Source: Bacteroidota bacterium
Lineage (GTDB): Bacteria; Bacteroidota; Ignavibacteria; SZUA-365
Reading direction: 5' to 3'
Length of the DNA: 41,042 bases
Assembly (NCBI GenBank): GCA_029907355.1
Contig: JARYLZ010000020.1
Location: 1 to 41,042, forward strand
Shown here piece by piece: positions 5,354 through 41,042 of the stretch. Position numbers and translations under genes: made by a program. The notes below the pieces were generated by a model that saw only the letters and a program-made list of their open reading frames with translations, ran no database searches and had not been told where the DNA came from. The first letter of the stretch is position 1. Each line of letters begins with the position of its first letter.

Positions 5354-5803
5354 TCAGTTGCGTGCCGTGCCTTCCTCCCCCCCCCAGTCGATCACCTCGA
5401 CGCGGACCGGGATGACACCGCTGCGGAGCATGCCGAGTTCCCGCGCAGCCGCGTAGCTCAGGTCGACGATGCGGTTCCCTCGTATCGGCCCTCGGTCGTT
5501 GACCCGGACGAGTACGGATTTACCGGTTCGTTTTGCAGTGACGCGGAGCCACGTTCCAAAGGGGTAGGAATTGTGCGCGGCGGTGAACCGGGAACGATTA
5601 TACCGTTCCCCGCTGGCGGTCCTCCGTCCGTGCAGGCGGTCGCTGTAATAGGATGCGGTTCCCTCGCTCGCTTCGAGAACGCGGTACGCGTGTCCGCCGA
5701 GGGCGTCTTCCTCCGCCGTTTCCCGGAGAGAGGTGCAGCCGTTCAGCGCGGCAGCGCCAACGCCGAGGGCGAACCCGAAGCCGTAAACGAATACCGTGCG
5801 CAT
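5354..5803 (-). CDS. rlpA: RlpA-family lipoprotein, septal ring lytic transglycosylase-like
   Basis: 149 residues. A signal with lipobox-like AALNGC is followed by a single double-psi beta-barrel domain. Family landmarks are GTASYYSDRLHGRRTASGE, the FTAAHNSYPFGT segment and VRVNDRGP, whose Asp is the proposed catalytic residue. RlpA cleaves glycan strands lacking stem peptides during division. No SPOR domain follows, so this is the minimal form. The ATG at 5803 overlaps the manC stop by one base (TGATG), which fixes the start against the 495-residue frame that reads back through manC. Translational coupling to manC suggests a small envelope operon with the deacetylase downstream. Confidence 0.88.
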   Translation of the reverse strand: MRTVFVYGFGFALGVGAAALNGCTSLRETAEEDALGGHAYRVLEASEGTASYYSDRLHGRRTASGERYNRSRFTAAHNSYPFGTWLRVTAKRTGKSVLVRVNDRGPIRGNRIVDLSYAAARELGMLRSGVIPVRVEVIDWGGEEGTARN

Positions 5804-6888
5804 CAGAGGTGCCTCTTCAAGTCGGCTTTCTTGAGGGCTTCGACGATCTCGCGCACTTCCTGCGAACGCCCCCGCTTGCAAATGAGGAGGGCGTCGTCGG
5901 TGTCGATCACCGTCAGGTCCTCCACACCGATCGCAGCGACGACGCGTTTTCGCGTCGTGCTCAGATGGCAACCGTGCACGTCCCGGACGAACACACGCCC
6001 TTCCAGAACGTTCTCGTTCTCGTCTTTCTCCGCGATGCGGTAGGCTTCGTCCCAGCTCCCCAGATCGTTCCACCCGAACTCCGCAGGGAGGATGAAACGG
6101 TTCTCTGCATGCTCCATCACCCCGTAATCGATGGAAATCGATCGCATGCCCCGATATGCCGCCTCGAGCGCGGGGTAGAATTCGGGGGTGTCGATGAAAC
6201 CGCGCAGACGGTGGAACTCCTCGGATACGTCGGGGAGGTGGTCCGCCACGGCATTGAGGATGATCGTCACCTTGAAAATGAACATCCCGCTGTTCCAGAG
6301 GAAATCGCCGCTCTCGATGAAGCGCTTGGCCGTGGGAAGGTTCGGTTTCTCTGCGAACGTCTTGACAGGGAAAGCGCCGAGCGCGCGGAGAGTCTCCGGG
6401 ACGGAACGATCGTCGTACTGGATATACCCGTAACCCGTTTCCGGGCGCGTGGGTCGTATACCGACGGTTACCAGGCCGCGGCTGCGCACGGCGGTTCGGA
6501 CGGCACGGCGCAGGACGTCCTGGAACGCAGGGACATCCCGGACGATATGATCGGCCGGGACGACGACCATCACGACGTTCCCCGCCCTGTGCCGGAGAAC
6601 CTCTGCCGCATAGGTGATCGCGGGCGCTGTGTTCTTCCCCGACGGTTCGACGAGGACGTTCTCCGGCGGAATGTGTGCCAACTGACGCTGGATTTCCCCG
6701 ACCTGGGCGCTGTTCGTGACGATGAGCACATTCTCCGGAGGGATGAGGGGGTGGAGACGTGCGACGGTGTTCTGGATCATCGTCCCTTCCCCGACGATTT
6801 CCAGCAGCTGTTTGGGGGAACGCTCCCGGCTGCGCGGCCAAAAACGGGAACCGATGCCTCCGGCGATGATGACGGCGAAAACTTTCAT
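5803..6888 (-). CDS. manC: Mannose-1-phosphate guanylyltransferase
   Basis: 361 residues, the length of the short form without a fused isomerase domain. It makes GDP-mannose from mannose-1-phosphate and GTP for envelope glycans. The N-terminal nucleotide signature is clear: IIAGGIGSRFWPRSRE followed by SPKQLL; VVVPADHIV, FAEKPN and EFGWNDLGSW are the further family motifs. The ATG at 6888 is the only plausible start, although no good ribosome-binding site precedes it. It lies 64 bases after atpC and overlaps rlpA by one base. The downstream deacetylase and RlpA fit an envelope-polysaccharide group that may share the ATP synthase transcript. Confidence 0.93.
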   Translation of the reverse strand: MKVFAVIIAGGIGSRFWPRSRERSPKQLLEIVGEGTMIQNTVARLHPLIPPENVLIVTNSAQVGEIQRQLAHIPPENVLVEPSGKNTAPAITYAAEVLRHRAGNVVMVVVPADHIVRDVPAFQDVLRRAVRTAVRSRGLVTVGIRPTRPETGYGYIQYDDRSVPETLRALGAFPVKTFAEKPNLPTAKRFIESGDFLWNSGMFIFKVTIILNAVADHLPDVSEEFHRLRGFIDTPEFYPALEAAYRGMRSISIDYGVMEHAENRFILPAEFGWNDLGSWDEAYRIAEKDENENVLEGRVFVRDVHGCHLSTTRKRVVAAIGVEDLTVIDTDDALLICKRGRSQEVREIVEALKKADLKRHL

Positions 6889-34305: not shown

Positions 34306-37300
34306 ATGAATAGCAGCGGGCTCACATCGCTCATCGGAAAGCGGATAGCCCTCCCAGGACACTTCGACGGCCCAGTGGTTCTGGAAGACGCTCGTCTGCT
34401 CGGCTCCGACGATTCGGCAGGCTATGAGTGTCGTGTACGCCTTCCCGATGGTTCATTGGAAGAGGCTGTCATCTCGGCCGAGGAGGTGAAGGCAGTTCTC
34501 GCGCGGGGTCCAGACGTAGCGAGAGCTGAGACGCCCGTGGATGCCGAAAAGCTACGCCTTCTCATCGAATCCTCGCGGATTCGACTGGCCTACGCGCACG
34601 ACCACCAGTTTGCCGTCAGCCTTTCCGGCATCCGCACCCTGCCGCACCAGATCGAGGCCGTTTACCAGGCGATGCTTCCCCAGCCAAGACTTCGGTTCCT
34701 CCTGGCGGATGATCCCGGAGCCGGCAAGACAATCATGGCCGGTCTCCTTGTGAAAGAGATGAAACTTCGCGAAGCCATCGAGCGCATCCTCATCCTATGC
34801 CCCCCTCCTCTAACCATCCAGTGGCAGGATGAAATGCTCCGCTGGTTCGGTGAGCCTTTCGATATCATCTTCTCCGCTGTCGATCAACAACAATTAACGA
34901 ATCCCTGGGAGAAGTCCTCCCAGATCATTGCTTCCATTGATTACGCGAAACAAGAAGACGTTCGTGAACGAGTTTGGCAACAGCGGTGGGACCTCGTCAT
35001 CATCGATGAAGCCCATAAATGCTCGGCCAGGACTGCGTCAAGCGGTCAGAACCGCGAATGCAAGGTTGCCATGACGAAACGCTATGAGCTGGCATCGCGT
35101 CTCACCGCCCAAGCTGACCACGTCCTCCTGTTGACCGCAACACCCCACCATGGGGACGAGGATAAATTCGCTCATTTCCTCCGGCTCATCGATCCGGACC
35201 TTTTCCCTGAACCGCACCGTCTCGGAAAACAGGCCGCAGAAATCCGGCAAAACGTTTTTCGGCTTGGGAAAGATTCCCCATGGTGTCTACGCCGCCTCAA
35301 GGAAGACCTCAGAGACGCAAACGGCAGACGGCTCTTCCCCGACCGACATACGAGGACCGTCACGTTCCGTTTGAACAACGACGAATACGCCCTGTACAAG
35401 AGCGTTACTGCCTACATCAACGAATTCATCGCCCAGCAAACGGACCAGCGGCGCTCCTCTGCTGCATTGACGCGAACCGTTTTACAACGCCGCCTGGTAA
35501 GCTCCACCTGCGCCATCCACGAGTCGCTGAAGCGGAGGCTGAAGAAACAGGAAGAGTTTTTACAGGAACTCGAAGGCCTCACGCCAGCCCAGCGCGCCAA
35601 ACGGCTGGCTGCTCTTCAGGGCCGCATGCCTGATGTCGAGCAGGATGAGGACGATCTCGATGATGCTCTCCGTGACCAGTTGGTCAATGAGTTTACAACT
35701 GCGCTGGAGCTCGAACAATTGCGCGAGGAAATTTCGAACCTCAAGGAGCTCGTCGAGCAAGCGCGAAGGGTTCGGGAAAACGCAAGCGATTCCAAGCTGA
35801 TTGCATTGAAAAAGTGCCTCGACGAAGCTCAGTTCATGGACTTGAAGGATGGTCGGGGGAAGCTCCTGATTTTTACGGAGCACCGTGATACCTTGAATTA
35901 CGTGCGCGATAATCTGAGACGATGGGGTTTTTCCACCTGCGAAATACACGGCGGTATGAACCCCCATGAACGCAAGTACGCTCAGGAGGTCTTCAGGACG
36001 GGTACGCAGGTGTGCGTAGCGACGGAAGCCGCTGGTGAAGGGATTAACCTCCAGTTCTGTCATTTGATAATCAATTACGACATGCCCTGGAACCCGACCC
36101 GGCTGGAGCAGCGCCTCGGCCGCATCCACCGTATCGGTCAGGACCGTGATGTTTACGCTTTCAACTTCGTGGCCACGGACTCCGAGGACGGCCAGCCCAT
36201 CGTTGAAGGTCGCATTCTCCACCGCCTTTTGGAAAAGCTCGATCAGATGAAAGAGGCTCTTGAAGGCCGTGTCTTCGATGTGATCGGAGAGGTGCTATCG
36301 CTCAATAATGTGAACCTACCGGATATGCTGCGTGAAGCTGCATACGATCCCAAACGTCTCGATGAGTACCTCGATCAAATCGACCGGATTGATCCTGCCA
36401 AACTCCAAGCATATGAGGAAGCAACGGGCATTGCGCTCGCGCGCAGTCACGTGGATTTCTCTGCATTCCAGCGCCGTAACCTCGAGGTCGAGGAACGGAG
36501 GCTCATGCCGCGGTATGTGGAGGCGCAGTTCATCGCAGCGGCCCGCGAGGTGGGATTGCGTGTTGAGCCGCGGGCTGATGGTTTGTGGCGTGTCGAGCAT
36601 GTCCTTGCTGATCTCCGTTCGGAACGACTCCGCTCGATACAGAAGACCGGAAAAGCGGAATCCTCCTATCGAAAGATCACCTTTCACAAATACCACCTCG
36701 AACAGGACGCCCACGTAGACGCCGTCTTGATGGGACCAGGACATCCGCTCTATGCGGCGGTAGACGAGAAGCTCAATGAACGGTTTGCAGGTTTGATCGG
36801 AGGGATCGGTTTCTTCATCGACCCTTTGTGCAGAGATCCCTATCGTATTCATTTTTTTGAGGTATCCATCCGCGGCAAGGATTCAAAGGGGAATGCTATT
36901 CCGCTTTATGGCGAGCTCGTTGCCGTTCGGGAAGAGGGCGGGCAATACGAGATCATCCCGAGCGACATCCTGCTCAATTTTGTGGCGCATCCCCAACCGC
37001 CGCACGAGTTCGACACGATAGTACATTCTGCCAGCCTATCGAAGGCTTCTGATTTTCTAAAGAGCGATTACCAGCTTAAGTGTCGCGAACGTTGTCAGCG
37101 TGAACGACAGCATTTCGCACAGGTTTGTCGGGAATACCTGGGAAAATCGTTCAAGGTCCGAATCGATCGCGCCCAGGAGCGGGCCATGCATCTGATGGCT
37201 GAGGCCGCTACGAAACCCGAATTCAAGCTCGCCGCCGACGAGGCGCGGAAATACGTTGAGGAACTTGAGAGGCAACGCCAGGAACGCCTCGATGGTCTCA

Positions 37301-37833
37301 AACGCCTCGAGATTGCCCGGACGGGTCCGGTCAAACACGTTGGTACGGCCGTTGTCCTGACTCCAGATGCCGACACGCAGGCCCAACTTGCCGATCTGGC
37401 CGAAGAACTCGATCCAAGTATTCGCCGGGAGAGCGAGATCGCCGCCGAAGAGAAGGTTATTGAAGCACTGGTCGCAGAAGGCTTCCCCCAGGACCGTATC
37501 GAGCGGGTCGGTCATCTAAAATTGGGTTTTGACATCCGCGCTCACAAGATCGCCGATGAGACAACCGGCGAGATCTTCGTCAAGAGAGTCGAGGTCAAAG
37601 GGAGGGCACGCGGTCAGGCCATTCGCTTGACGACGAACGAGTGGTATAAAGCGGCGCAACTAGCCGAAACGTACTGGCTCTATGTGGTCTGGGACCCCTT
37701 GGGCGATTCCCCTGAAATTGTGCGTATTCATAACCCTGTTGCCAAGCTCGATCACGCCAAGAGGGAAATTGCAGCGGCGAGATTCTACGAGATTCCGGCG
37801 GAAGCGGTGGAAACCTTTCAAGAAAAGAGGTAG
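34306..37833 (+). CDS. drmD: SNF2-family helicase with DUF3883-like C-terminus (DrmD-like, class 1 DISARM)
   Basis: 1,175 residues. The helicase core has Walker A DDPGAGKT (K141), motif II DEAH (234-237), LLTATPHHG, and the second RecA domain with LLIFTEHRDTLNYV, ATEAAGEGINLQFCH and QRLGRIHRIGQ. A long coiled-coil-rich region (YVEELERQRQERLDGL) leads into a C-terminal DUF3883-like domain with GFDIRAHK (D1076) and VKRVEVKG (E1096, K1098), the D...E-x-K layout of PD-(D/E)XK folds. This architecture and the following DUF1156 methylase match class 1 DISARM, where DrmD pairs with DrmMI against phage. GAGGG precedes the ATG. An alternative is another DUF1156-associated defence set (DUF499 type); the genes to the right would decide. 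Confidence 0.85.
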   Translation: MNSSGLTSLIGKRIALPGHFDGPVVLEDARLLGSDDSAGYECRVRLPDGSLEEAVISAEEVKAVLARGPDVARAETPVDAEKLRLLIESSRIRLAYAHDHQFAVSLSGIRTLPHQIEAVYQAMLPQPRLRFLLADDPGAGKTIMAGLLVKEMKLREAIERILILCPPPLTIQWQDEMLRWFGEPFDIIFSAVDQQQLTNPWEKSSQIIASIDYAKQEDVRERVWQQRWDLVIIDEAHKCSARTASSGQNRECKVAMTKRYELASRLTAQADHVLLLTATPHHGDEDKFAHFLRLIDPDLFPEPHRLGKQAAEIRQNVFRLGKDSPWCLRRLKEDLRDANGRRLFPDRHTRTVTFRLNNDEYALYKSVTAYINEFIAQQTDQRRSSAALTRTVLQRRLVSSTCAIHESLKRRLKKQEEFLQELEGLTPAQRAKRLAALQGRMPDVEQDEDDLDDALRDQLVNEFTTALELEQLREEISNLKELVEQARRVRENASDSKLIALKKCLDEAQFMDLKDGRGKLLIFTEHRDTLNYVRDNLRRWGFSTCEIHGGMNPHERKYAQEVFRTGTQVCVATEAAGEGINLQFCHLIINYDMPWNPTRLEQRLGRIHRIGQDRDVYAFNFVATDSEDGQPIVEGRILHRLLEKLDQMKEALEGRVFDVIGEVLSLNNVNLPDMLREAAYDPKRLDEYLDQIDRIDPAKLQAYEEATGIALARSHVDFSAFQRRNLEVEERRLMPRYVEAQFIAAAREVGLRVEPRADGLWRVEHVLADLRSERLRSIQKTGKAESSYRKITFHKYHLEQDAHVDAVLMGPGHPLYAAVDEKLNERFAGLIGGIGFFIDPLCRDPYRIHFFEVSIRGKDSKGNAIPLYGELVAVREEGGQYEIIPSDILLNFVAHPQPPHEFDTIVHSASLSKASDFLKSDYQLKCRERCQRERQHFAQVCREYLGKSFKVRIDRAQERAMHLMAEAATKPEFKLAADEARKYVEELERQRQERLDGLKRLEIARTGPVKHVGTAVVLTPDADTQAQLADLAEELDPSIRRESEIAAEEKVIEALVAEGFPQDRIERVGHLKLGFDIRAHKIADETTGEIFVKRVEVKGRARGQAIRLTTNEWYKAAQLAETYWLYVVWDPLGDSPEIVRIHNPVAKLDHAKREIAAARFYEIPAEAVETFQEKR

Positions 37834-37836
37834 AAA

Positions 37837-38490
37837 ATGGCAGCTTTCGATAATTTCAGATCTATAATGAAGCGTGCCGAAACGTTAGTTGATTTGCATA
37901 AGGTGTTATGCCCACGAGGCAAACCCAAAGCAGAATATGCAGATATCTTGAGAGCAGTCATAGTTTTATCGGTATCCGCAGTAGACGGATATTTTCATGA
38001 AAAAATACCAGAAAACATTGCACGCCTAATACAGGGGAAGAGGGGCAGGAATCTTCCGGGAAAACTGATCGATGTCATAAAAGCTGAAGCGTCACACGAG
38101 AAATTGATAAGTATCATGTTTGAAAAACGCCGCTTATCGCACATTGTCAGTTTAGTTCGAAAGTCAATGAAAGAAAAAACTTACCAAGATCCTGGCAAAA
38201 TTGAAGAGGCTATCAAACTCTTAGGGATAGATAAGTTTTGGGAAAAGGTAGGACAACAATTAAATGTACAAAAAGAAAAAAAAATTAAAACATACATCCA
38301 AAGGTACATTAATCGTAGGAATGATATAGCCCATCGTGCCGATTTTGGACAAACCAAGAGGAATAAAAATAAACTTCATAATATTAATAGATCTTACGCT
38401 AATAAATGCATTGATGAAGTCAGACAATTCATCGAAGCAATAGAGTCGGTCATAGAAACTGAATTGAAAAGAATAAATACAAGAACATGA
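37837..38490 (+). CDS. HEPN-domain protein within the DISARM-type operon
   Basis: 217 residues, all-helical. A HEPN nuclease motif R-x4-H is seen at R161-N-D-I-A-H166 in YINRRNDIAHRADFG, in the expected late position; the N-terminal helix FRSIMKRAETLVDLH and LSVSAVDGYFHEKI match RiboL-PSP/MAE_28990-type HEPN domains. Such proteins are often RNases acting in abortive defence. The gene begins three bases after drmD and its stop overlaps the methylase start (ATGA), so it belongs to the operon. Its base composition differs sharply from both neighbours: line 38101-38160 has 21 G/C of 60, whereas drmD line 35581-35640 has 41. That suggests a separate acquisition. HEPN genes are not among the canonical DISARM components. 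Confidence 0.75.
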   Translation: MAAFDNFRSIMKRAETLVDLHKVLCPRGKPKAEYADILRAVIVLSVSAVDGYFHEKIPENIARLIQGKRGRNLPGKLIDVIKAEASHEKLISIMFEKRRLSHIVSLVRKSMKEKTYQDPGKIEEAIKLLGIDKFWEKVGQQLNVQKEKKIKTYIQRYINRRNDIAHRADFGQTKRNKNKLHNINRSYANKCIDEVRQFIEAIESVIETELKRINTRT

Positions 38491-41042
38491 CCGACGACCA
38501 TCGTATCATCGAAGACTTCCTCCCTATTCAACCCATCAGCGCCGAGGCGTCTCGAGAGAAATCCGTCCGAAAAGGGCATATTTCGACCCTTCACCTCTGG
38601 TGGGCGCGGCGGCCTCTGGTGGCGTGTCGAGCCGCGGTCTATGGCGCGCTTGTACCAGCGTCGCGGTTCATCCCAGAGAACGGCCCGGACAATAAAAAAC
38701 AGAGTCTGGGCAGGACCAACGCTGCCAGGTTCATCGAGCGGCTCTGCAAGTATCCGGGCAATCCAACCGTCATTAGGGAGGCCCAGAAGCACATCCTCGA
38801 AGCCCATGCTGAACGTCTGAGTGAAGAGACCGGTAAAAAGGTCACTGTCGAGGATATCGAGGAAGGTCGCGCACCACGTCCCAAAGTGCTCGATATGTTC
38901 GCGGGCGGCGGGGCCATCCCTCTGGAAGCCCTGCGCTTGGGCTGCGAGGCTTATGCCCTGGACCTCAATCCAGTGGCGCACATCATCGAGCTTTGCACAC
39001 TGGTCTATCCCCAGAAATACGGGAAGCCCGACCCGAATGCGCGCGGCATGACCGGCCCCAAAAACGCATATGGCGAAACCACCTGGGGAGGCTTGGCCGA
39101 CGAGGTCCGCTACTGGGGCGAATGGGTACTCAAAAAGGTCAAGACTGAGATCGGCGATTTATATCCCCTCATCCCCGACCCTGATTTCCATGAAAAACCA
39201 ATACGTAGCACAGGCTTTCCAGCCTGTGCTCCACAACAAGAGCTTTTCGTTACCCGTCGGAATCTTCCCCATTGGCAACTTCAAGGAAGTACCTATTTCG
39301 TCACGTTCCGCATCAAGGAAGGAACGCTTGCAGAGCCTGAGCGACAGACGGTTTTGGAAGCGATCAAGCATTTCCACGGTGAACGCTATTGGGTTCTTGC
39401 GGCTGTTGTCATGCCTGATCATGCACATGTCATTCTAAGGCCGAATCAGACTCGTTCTGGCACCGATATACGTTTAGGGAAACTGCTCCAGAGCATTAAG
39501 GGATTCTCCGCACGAGAAATCAACAAGATGCGCAGGAAAAGAGGCGCATTATGGCAGGAGGAGAGCTTCGATCGCATCATCCGAGATGAAGAAGAACTCT
39601 TGGAAAAATGGAAATACATCCGACAGAACCCTATTAAACAAGGTCTTTGCGAAAAACCGGAAGAATATCCTTTCTTATGGGAATCGTTTGAATCATTGGA
39701 ATTTGGCAATGCACAGCCTGGAAAGGCTGTGCTACCAGAAAAAACACCCGCCGGGTATTTAACCCCGATTGCCTATCTCTGGACGCGCACGGTTCGCTGT
39801 AAAAACCCCGCCTGCGGCGCGACAGTGCCGCTCGTCCGTCAAACCTGGATGTGCAAGAAGAAGGACCGCTATGTGGCGCTTAAAATGATAGCGCCCAAGG
39901 GCGAAAAGCGGGTGCGCTTCAATGTGGTGGAAAGCCGCACGGAAAAGGGCCTGGGCTTCGATCCCACGGCCTTCTCCAAGGGCGGCAACGCCACATGTCC
40001 GTTCTGCGGCACTGTGGCAGACAGCGACTATGTGAAAACTGAAGGACAGGCGAGCCGCATGGGCACGCAGATGATGGCCATTGTCTGCACGAGGCAGGGG
40101 AGGCAGGGGAAGATCTATCTTTCGGCGGACAATTACCAGGCGTTTTTGCCGGATGATGAAACGATAAAAAGGCGCATAGAGGCCCTTTGCCAGCGCAAAG
40201 ACCTGACGATGCCGAATGAGCCAATTATCACCGATGCGAAGAATAGCTGCTGGACGCACCTCTACGGTTTGACCACCTTCGGCGACCTCTTTACTCCCCG
40301 CCAGATGCTCTGCCTGATCACTTTCGCCGCGGCGGTGCGGGAGGCTTATCAAACCATGATAACCCAGGCATCGTTGGTAGCCCAGGCTTTCCAGCCTGGG
40401 CACGCACAGCCGGGGCACACACACCCTGCACACGCACAGTCGGGGCATGCACATTTGGAATATGTAAAATCGGGGCATGCACAGCCTGGAAAGGCTGTGC
40501 TACCGTATGATCTGGAAAGGGCCAAGGCGGTGGGAACATATTTAGGGGTTATAGTAAACCGATTAGCTGACTACAATTCAGCGCTATGCCATTGGCACAC
40601 AACACGTGAAATATTAGGGAACACTTTCGGCCGGCAAGCTTTGCCCATGGTATGGGATTTCGTTGAATTAGCGCCATTCGGAGATGCCTCAGGTTCTCCG
40701 CAAGGCGCTCTCGATTGGATCGTTAGTGTTGCAGAAGTACAAACCGATACCGGTCTTCCCGCCACCGTCCTCCGTGGCTCAGCTACCGCGCTCCCCTCGC
40801 CTGCTCTTAACTTCGACGCTGTTATCACCGATCCGCCGTACTACGACAACGTGCCCTACGCCGACATCTCCGATTTCTTCTATGTCTGGCTCAAACGCAC
40901 CATCGGTCATCTCTACCCTGAACACTTCGCCACCGAGGGCACACCCAAGAAGCAGGAGGCGGTAGCTGACGCCATGCGTCACGGCGGCAGCAAGGAAAAA
41001 GCCCGGCATGCCTACGAGCGGATGATGGCTCAATCCTTTGCC
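38487..41042 (+). CDS. drmMI: DUF1156/COG1743 adenine-specific DNA methylase (DrmMI-like) with in-frame RAYT insertion, 3' end outside window
   Basis: I translated the frame from 38487 to the edge and found no stop in 852 codons. The DUF1156 N-terminus is exact (FLPIQPISAEASREKSVRKG, then HISTLHLWWARRPL). The SAM motif DMFAGGGAIPLEAL (136 onward) with LDLNPVAH, the zinc ribbon CKNPACGATVPLVRQTWMC and CPFCG, and the catalytic DPPYYDN (D782) are intact. In DISARM this enzyme marks host DNA so that phage DNA is restricted. Residues about 240-416 are a REP-associated transposase and 631-672 a REP pair, both absent from ordinary members. After each insertion the family sequence resumes (GYLTPIAYLWTRTVRC; YLGVIVNRLADYNSALCHWH). 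The start overlaps the HEPN stop by four bases. Confidence 0.88.
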   Translation, partial: MTDDHRIIEDFLPIQPISAEASREKSVRKGHISTLHLWWARRPLVACRAAVYGALVPASRFIPENGPDNKKQSLGRTNAARFIERLCKYPGNPTVIREAQKHILEAHAERLSEETGKKVTVEDIEEGRAPRPKVLDMFAGGGAIPLEALRLGCEAYALDLNPVAHIIELCTLVYPQKYGKPDPNARGMTGPKNAYGETTWGGLADEVRYWGEWVLKKVKTEIGDLYPLIPDPDFHEKPIRSTGFPACAPQQELFVTRRNLPHWQLQGSTYFVTFRIKEGTLAEPERQTVLEAIKHFHGERYWVLAAVVMPDHAHVILRPNQTRSGTDIRLGKLLQSIKGFSAREINKMRRKRGALWQEESFDRIIRDEEELLEKWKYIRQNPIKQGLCEKPEEYPFLWESFESLEFGNAQPGKAVLPEKTPAGYLTPIAYLWTRTVRCKNPACGATVPLVRQTWMCKKKDRYVALKMIAPKGEKRVRFNVVESRTEKGLGFDPTAFSKGGNATCPFCGTVADSDYVKTEGQASRMGTQMMAIVCTRQGRQGKIYLSADNYQAFLPDDETIKRRIEALCQRKDLTMPNEPIITDAKNSCWTHLYGLTTFGDLFTPRQMLCLITFAAAVREAYQTMITQASLVAQAFQPGHAQPGHTHPAHAQSGHAHLEYVKSGHAQPGKAVLPYDLERAKAVGTYLGVIVNRLADYNSALCHWHTTREILGNTFGRQALPMVWDFVELAPFGDASGSPQGALDWIVSVAEVQTDTGLPATVLRGSATALPSPALNFDAVITDPPYYDNVPYADISDFFYVWLKRTIGHLYPEHFATEGTPKKQEAVADAMRHGGSKEKARHAYERMMAQSFA
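39205..39230 (+). repeat. REP hairpin, left end of RAYT element
   Basis: GTAG followed by a perfect 10-bp hairpin AGCACAGGCT-TTCC-AGCCTGTGCT. The GTAG tetranucleotide plus imperfect palindrome is the classical REP layout recognised by RAYTs. Confidence 0.85.
39711..39735 (-). repeat. REP hairpin, right end of RAYT element
   Basis: GCACAGCCT-GGAA-AGGCTGTGC followed by TAC, the reverse complement of the left REP with one compensating change in each arm. It forms the second arm of the inverted pair. Confidence 0.85.
40377..40401 (+). repeat. REP hairpin, left member of second pair
   Basis: GTAGCCCAGGCTTTCCAGCC-type REP: perfect stem GCCCAGGCT / AGCCTGGGC around TTCC. It carries a compensated A-to-C change relative to the REP at 39205, so both arms changed together. 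Confidence 0.85.
40402..40478 (+). repeat. Short degenerate direct repeats between paired REPs
   Basis: The spacer between the paired REPs repeats the unit CACGCACAG[C/T]CGGGGCA at least twice, with a third partial copy (TCGGGGCATGCACAG) running into the right REP. In frame it encodes a His/Pro/Gly/Ala-rich linker. Confidence 0.6.
40479..40503 (-). repeat. REP hairpin, right member of second pair
   Basis: Identical in sequence to the REP at 39711-39735 over the hairpin and TAC. With the REP at 40377 it makes an inverted pair (a BIME-like unit) without a transposase. Confidence 0.85.

Follow-up and report, generated by a model that had tools for sequence, protein, structure and literature searches.

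We report a whole REP-associated transposase (RAYT, TnpA-REP) that lies in frame, with a REP palindrome at each end, inside an antiphage defence methylase gene, and we find comparable composites in other bacteria. The case was found in the window, which is the whole stretch of 41,042 nucleotides analysed here. Our preferred reading, to which we give a probability of about 60%, is that a translated, functional RAYT domain is lodged in a permissive linker of a defence enzyme and is carried along with the defence gene.

Results

The host gene is a HmaB methylase

The host reading frame (38487-41042, + strand) spans 852 codons without a stop and continues past the contig end. The features of the locus are as follows.

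34306..37833 (+): HmaA-like SNF2 helicase with a NOV_C (nuclease-like) C-terminus; PADLOC HmaA 1.1e-185; Pfam Helicase_C, SNF2 and NOV_C
37837..38490 (+): HEPN (RiboL-PSP type) protein; PF18735 2.4e-12
38487..41042 (+): HmaB / DUF1156 N6-adenine methylase frame with RAYT; PADLOC HmaB 7.1e-124; PF06634 2.9e-26; 3' end on contig C108 (L108 3-1010)
38892..38942 (+): SAM-binding motif I region (DMFAGGGAIPLEALRLG); conserved in the methylase alignment
39205..39229 (+): left REP palindrome GTAGCACAGGCTTTCCAGCCTGTGC, translated (R)STGFPACA
39225..39686 (+): RAYT (TnpA-REP) domain, frame residues 247-400; HMM match 1.4e-82; Pfam Y1_Tnp; PDB 4ER8
39420..39428 (+): HUH motif H312-A-H314 (PDH312-A-H314)
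39615..39617 (+): catalytic tyrosine Y377 (YIRQNP); aligns with YIYINP of 4ER8
39711..39735 (-): right REP palindrome, inverted, translated NAQPGKAVLP
39798..40008 (+): zinc ribbon of the methylase (CKNPAC ... CPFC); also conserved in L031, L034 and a Nostoc homologue
40377..40503 (+): another REP pair in frame, lacking a RAYT; its arms enclose 15-bp repeats; the linker is site D
40830..40844 (+): methylase motif IV DPPYY; invariant in the methylase alignment

Pfam, PADLOC and the alignment agree on a DUF1156 domain and N6-methyltransferase motifs I and IV, as in HmaB. DUF1156 lies 5' of the RAYT, and the zinc ribbon and then motif IV follow 3' of it. The RAYT thus sits between the SAM-binding and zinc-ribbon parts with methylase motifs on both sides, as the initial annotation had described. 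The HmaA helicase gene adjoins the locus upstream, and the HEPN gene lies between the HmaA and HmaB genes. Contig C108 of the same genome opens with the matching methylase tail, followed by a gene for a DUF499-like ATPase, a label that comes from the gene's sequence and place and not from a profile. The window contig (C86) and C108 are probably neighbours, as judged from the two gene halves and not from a joined sequence. On the Nostoc plasmid pn5 the same order of helicase, small protein, DUF1156 and annotated DUF499 genes is found.

Hma systems have been renamed DUF499-centred BREX-related (BR) type 1 (PMC12839542). We conclude that the host is the HmaB of a Hma/BR type-1 locus. It had been taken for a DISARM-type methylase, and this assignment has to be given up, since the frame has no match to a Drm methylase (DrmMI/DrmMII), its best PADLOC model is HmaB, HmaA adjoins it and a DUF499-like gene is present on C108. 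The HmaB of PMC12839542 likewise is a DUF1156 N6-methylase beside HmaA; it also has a DUF499 ATPase (HmaC) as neighbour, of which the DUF499-like gene on C108 is a putative counterpart. The window HmaB differs in having a RAYT and additional REPs within its frame; the main text of that paper does not mention a transposase or RAYT.

A complete RAYT element is part of the methylase frame

The element measures 531 bases from REP to REP (39205-39735) and its frame is open, exactly as first annotated. The REP arms are 25 nt each and 92% complementary, and REP hairpins with a GTAG foot stand on both flanks of the RAYT. The unit matches Pfam Y1_Tnp (2.3e-5) and the TnpA-REP structure PDB 4ER8 (profile 5e-11; fold TM 0.69), and the HUH histidines and the tyrosine are intact, as had been claimed. 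It shares fold, HUH and Tyr residues and REP hairpins at both ends with the E. coli RAYT (4ER8). The E. coli gene, however, is stand-alone with its own start and stop, whereas the window RAYT has neither. The first in-frame starts are a TTG at 39354 and an ATG at 39411, both within the RAYT, and no start lies upstream of the catalytic core. Full-length RAYT would therefore be obtainable only as part of the methylase, and the missing start and stop together suggest that methylase and RAYT are one polypeptide. The other two forward frames across the same 531 bases contain 2 and 8 stops. GC3 is 0.45 in the RAYT versus 0.67-0.73 in the flanking host parts. AlphaFold gave a poor model of the full-length composite (pLDDT 41, 9 sequences) and a pLDDT of about 80 for the RAYT part, hence structural support is limited to the RAYT part.

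Two other kinds of insert were considered and rejected. No Hint splicing domain is among the Pfam matches of the frame, as an intein would require, and for an IStron or another intron-borne element neither a group I nor a group II intron, nor any Rfam match up to E 0.5, was found between 37800 and 41042.

The initial annotation had missed the second in-frame REP pair (40377-40503) and a probable in-frame REP in the methylase tail on C108 (L108 681-702). In the 3.25-Mb assembly the REP occurs five times, always within this methylase gene, versus about 50 copies in the Chloroflexi genome with the same composite (L031). The gene therefore probably came from a REP-bearing lineage. In L031, the adjacent DUF499-like gene (5517-6497) has a REP-like peptide (VGQASSLSV) close to its N-terminus, and DarTG-like genes lie upstream of the composite (390-2240).

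Inserts occupy four linkers, and close relatives have empty sites

In DUF1156 methylases we distinguish four insert linkers (A-D). Each of them lies between motifs I and IV, in the part described as the target-recognition insert of these enzymes (PMC12839542). Alignment with DUF1156 homologues places the window RAYT in linker A. A RAYT occupies the same site in the Chloroflexi MAG L031, which speaks against the isolated sequencing or assembly error that the initial annotation had considered, and L187 holds a distant RAYT (43% identical) in this linker. A palindrome-flanked, out-of-frame DUF559-type endonuclease ORF is found in linker A on plasmid CP101712 of Synechocystis sp. B12 (L202 3153-3620). 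Linker D, which holds the second REP pair in the window, holds RAYTs in L074 and L076. The Spirochaetes MAG L034 has a RAYT at a different site of a methylase of this type. On the Geminocystis plasmid pGM01 (L201) a DUF1156 methylase has about 150 residues of low-complexity repeats at linker D.

In six orthologues from the same genus as L074 the linker at the RAYT site is short, and their halves are 74-90% identical to L074. These short linkers show that the RAYT was inserted and that it is dispensable for the methylase family. Empty-site orthologues also exist on named plasmids, for instance in Nostoc. In one phylum sample, 4 of some 37 DUF1156 genes (about one in ten) from 168 genomes contained a RAYT. 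The segment is thus no standard part of the family, an objection that had been raised at the outset.

In-frame RAYTs recur in defence-type genes

For the survey we used the RAYT profile alone on four phylum samples of 395, 301, 297 and 247 genomes (about 1240). RAYTs listed in open frames of more than 400 residues were each fetched and annotated; shorter hosts were left out. The genomes of L031 and L034 were the centres of two samples and already known cases, and those two are not independent. The survey gave at least 26 genuine in-frame RAYTs inside long host genes. Among the matches listed, the hosts were DUF1156 methylases (14), type IIG Eco57I-like enzymes (5), HsdR (3), BrxXI (2), a defence-type SNF2 helicase (1) and RecG (1). 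Other methylases with an internal RAYT, for which a search had been proposed, thus exist: L031 shares the site of the window, and the survey counted at least 14 RAYTs in DUF1156 methylases. Restriction-modification, BREX, BR or SNF2 defence-type hosts make up 25 of 26 among the matches listed, leaving only RecG. If defence genes are assumed to be 10% of long genes, the probability of 25 of 26 is about 2e-24; with the separate events roughly put at 15, that of 14 of 15 is about 1e-13, both among the matches listed. In the RecG case (L077 3-1556) the RAYT lies in frame inside a housekeeping helicase, and both of its REP ends are near-perfect.

Six long-ORF matches were dropped: L166, L167, L194 and L197 for a nonsense-like N-terminal extension, L168 for internal repeats of the RAYT itself, and L199 for a run of N. 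Some composites come from long contigs, such as the single 2.19-Mb contig of L075 and the 3.3-Mb contig of L163. Genome G732 encodes two DUF1156 methylases (L189, L195) with different RAYTs in different linkers. Viral contigs yielded no relatives of the methylase or the RAYT. On plasmids the RAYT relatives were annotated as transposases or unannotated, and none lay inside a methylase.

The inserted RAYT is under purifying selection

In the HsdR composites L107/L072 the dN/dS of the RAYT was 0.10 (0.06-0.17) and that of the host 0.11 (0.06-0.16), with equal dS. For the window and L031, pN/pS was 0.27 (0.20-0.36) in the RAYT and 0.28 (0.24-0.33) in the host. The pair L071/L107 was noisier (RAYT 0.20 versus host 0.10). 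In L074/L076 the RAYT has diverged more than the host, which suggests a replacement or two insertions. As judged by these ratios, the RAYT part of inherited composites is under purifying selection like the host part. The HUH motif is intact in 26 of 26 and the tyrosine in 25 of 26 (His in L073), among the matches listed. Two site-A composites each carry one disablement, an in-frame stop in the N-terminus (L031) and a frameshift 3' of the RAYT (L187).

On a RAYT tree of 63 rows we counted 11 switches between inserted and stand-alone copies, versus 19 with shuffled labels, and well supported branches force at least 6 of such switches. Inserted RAYTs therefore arose many times. Some clades consist of inserted copies only and cross the host families IIG, SNF2 and HmaB.

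Discussion

The anatomy of the composite, its recurrence, the empty sites, the host bias, the purifying selection and the conserved catalytic residues could all be read from sequence. We propose that a RAYT element, comprising the transposase gene and two REP hairpins, would enter a permissive surface linker of a Hma/BR type-1 methylase and become part of its frame, so that both are made as one polypeptide. The methylase would fold around the RAYT, which would take the place of a length-variable linker bordering the target-recognition region. The RAYT itself would fold as an independent domain and keep its REP-hairpin and ssDNA binding and its nicking chemistry. We infer that the product is one stable polypeptide that keeps both methylase and RAYT activities. 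Such lodging would have been repeated many times by several RAYT lineages, and the composite inherited with the defence gene, also across phyla. The reason for the host bias is our best guess: defence genes may be favoured because they are long and rich in loops, move frequently between genomes and are often addictive, and a domain that is not cleanly removable might be carried far and kept in such genes. Lodging is our preferred reading because the insert is optional, site and lineage vary, and the composite travels with transferable genes.

The initial annotation had offered a tolerated insertion or a functional fusion. Both readings can now be narrowed, since the insertion is recurrent and optional and the RAYT is under purifying selection. 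A chance in-frame insertion into a floppy linker, functionless and kept as harmless, would fit linkers that vary naturally in length and accept low-complexity or REP-only inserts, and Di Nocera et al. 2013 (PMC3733652) argued along these lines for intragenic REPs. However, RAYT dN/dS values of about 0.1-0.2, an HUH motif intact in 26 of 26 among the matches listed and the strong host bias already disfavour this reading, and we consider tolerance alone unlikely. Selection on the RAYT in inherited composites is likewise hard to square with hitch-hiking alone, so that some host-level function is likely. This makes co-option a serious rival, as selection implies that the RAYT does something. The defence system would then use it as an ssDNA- or hairpin-binding or nicking module, be it as a sensor of replicating phage DNA, an extra nuclease or an added DNA recognition beside the target-recognition region. 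The near-exclusive occurrence in DNA-acting defence enzymes among the matches listed, selection after insertion that equals the host's, the retained catalytic residues and the position of DUF1156 inserts, always on the target-recognition side, are in line with such a role. Yet most homologues, very close ones included, lack a RAYT (about 4 of some 37 have one in the phylum sample), sites, host families and RAYT lineages vary, and stand-alone RAYTs are also conserved, for reasons of their own. We regard co-option as possible. Equally tentative is the wider idea that a REP transposase has been recruited time and again by DUF1156/BR, BrxXI, type IIG and HsdR enzymes to serve as an ssDNA domain within them, a new class of defence-enzyme architecture; if true, dual methylase/nuclease or restriction/hairpin-binding proteins would exist.

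The bias might also arise at the DNA level, if RAYTs target defence genes or their palindromes and only in-frame products survive. Linkers A and D have been struck repeatedly by unrelated inserts (linker A by RAYTs 43% identical and, in Synechocystis, by the DUF559-type endonuclease; linker D by a RAYT or a REP pair), and REPs alone are over-represented in replication and repair genes (PMC3733652). Against this, DUF1156, BrxXI, type IIG, HsdR, SNF2 and RecG hosts are unrelated in overall sequence, and an unsystematic look at the hosts revealed no shared target motif. We find this explanation doubtful. An assembly or frame artefact is hardly credible. The data are from MAGs, the window gene is cut at the contig end and L031 and L187 have a disablement each, but at least 26 loci over four phylum samples, some on 2.2- and 3.3-Mb contigs, and the co-divergence of RAYT and host already refute it for the phenomenon as a whole.

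Parts of this picture have precedents. Palindromic REPs are known in frame in genes, often those of DNA replication and repair and with several per gene (Di Nocera et al. 2013, PMC3733652). Like the Rickettsia palindromic elements, these intragenic REPs resemble our case in being palindromic REP DNA in frame. Those inserts, however, are REPs alone of 20-82 residues, whereas here a whole conserved transposase lies in restriction/BREX-type defence hosts. In TnpA-REP subclass 2.4, according to Quentin et al. 2018 (PMC6006769), REPs lie inside the subclass's own gene. REP type and in-frame tolerance are common to both, but there the REPs are inside the RAYT and not the RAYT inside another gene, and the passages searched describe no fusion of a RAYT to a host gene. 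Inteins and homing endonucleases likewise sit in frame in DNA-metabolism proteins, at several sites and with presence or absence between close relatives. Inteins splice out, whereas the window insert, in which no splicing domain was found, apparently stays in the protein. Our literature search, with many subscription papers outside its coverage, found no description of a complete RAYT lodged in the frame of a methylase or restriction enzyme. This suggests that, while in-frame REPs were already known, whole RAYTs lodged in defence enzymes are new.

For annotation, the finding is a warning that Y1_Tnp matches within methylases are genuine and not misassemblies. It also provides an example of a transposase that lives inside another protein without removing itself, where inteins do so by splicing. 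RAYTs have been discussed as domesticated transposases (PMC8266576). Their conservation within restriction and BREX-related enzymes ties them to antiphage defence in a way that is concrete and can be tested.
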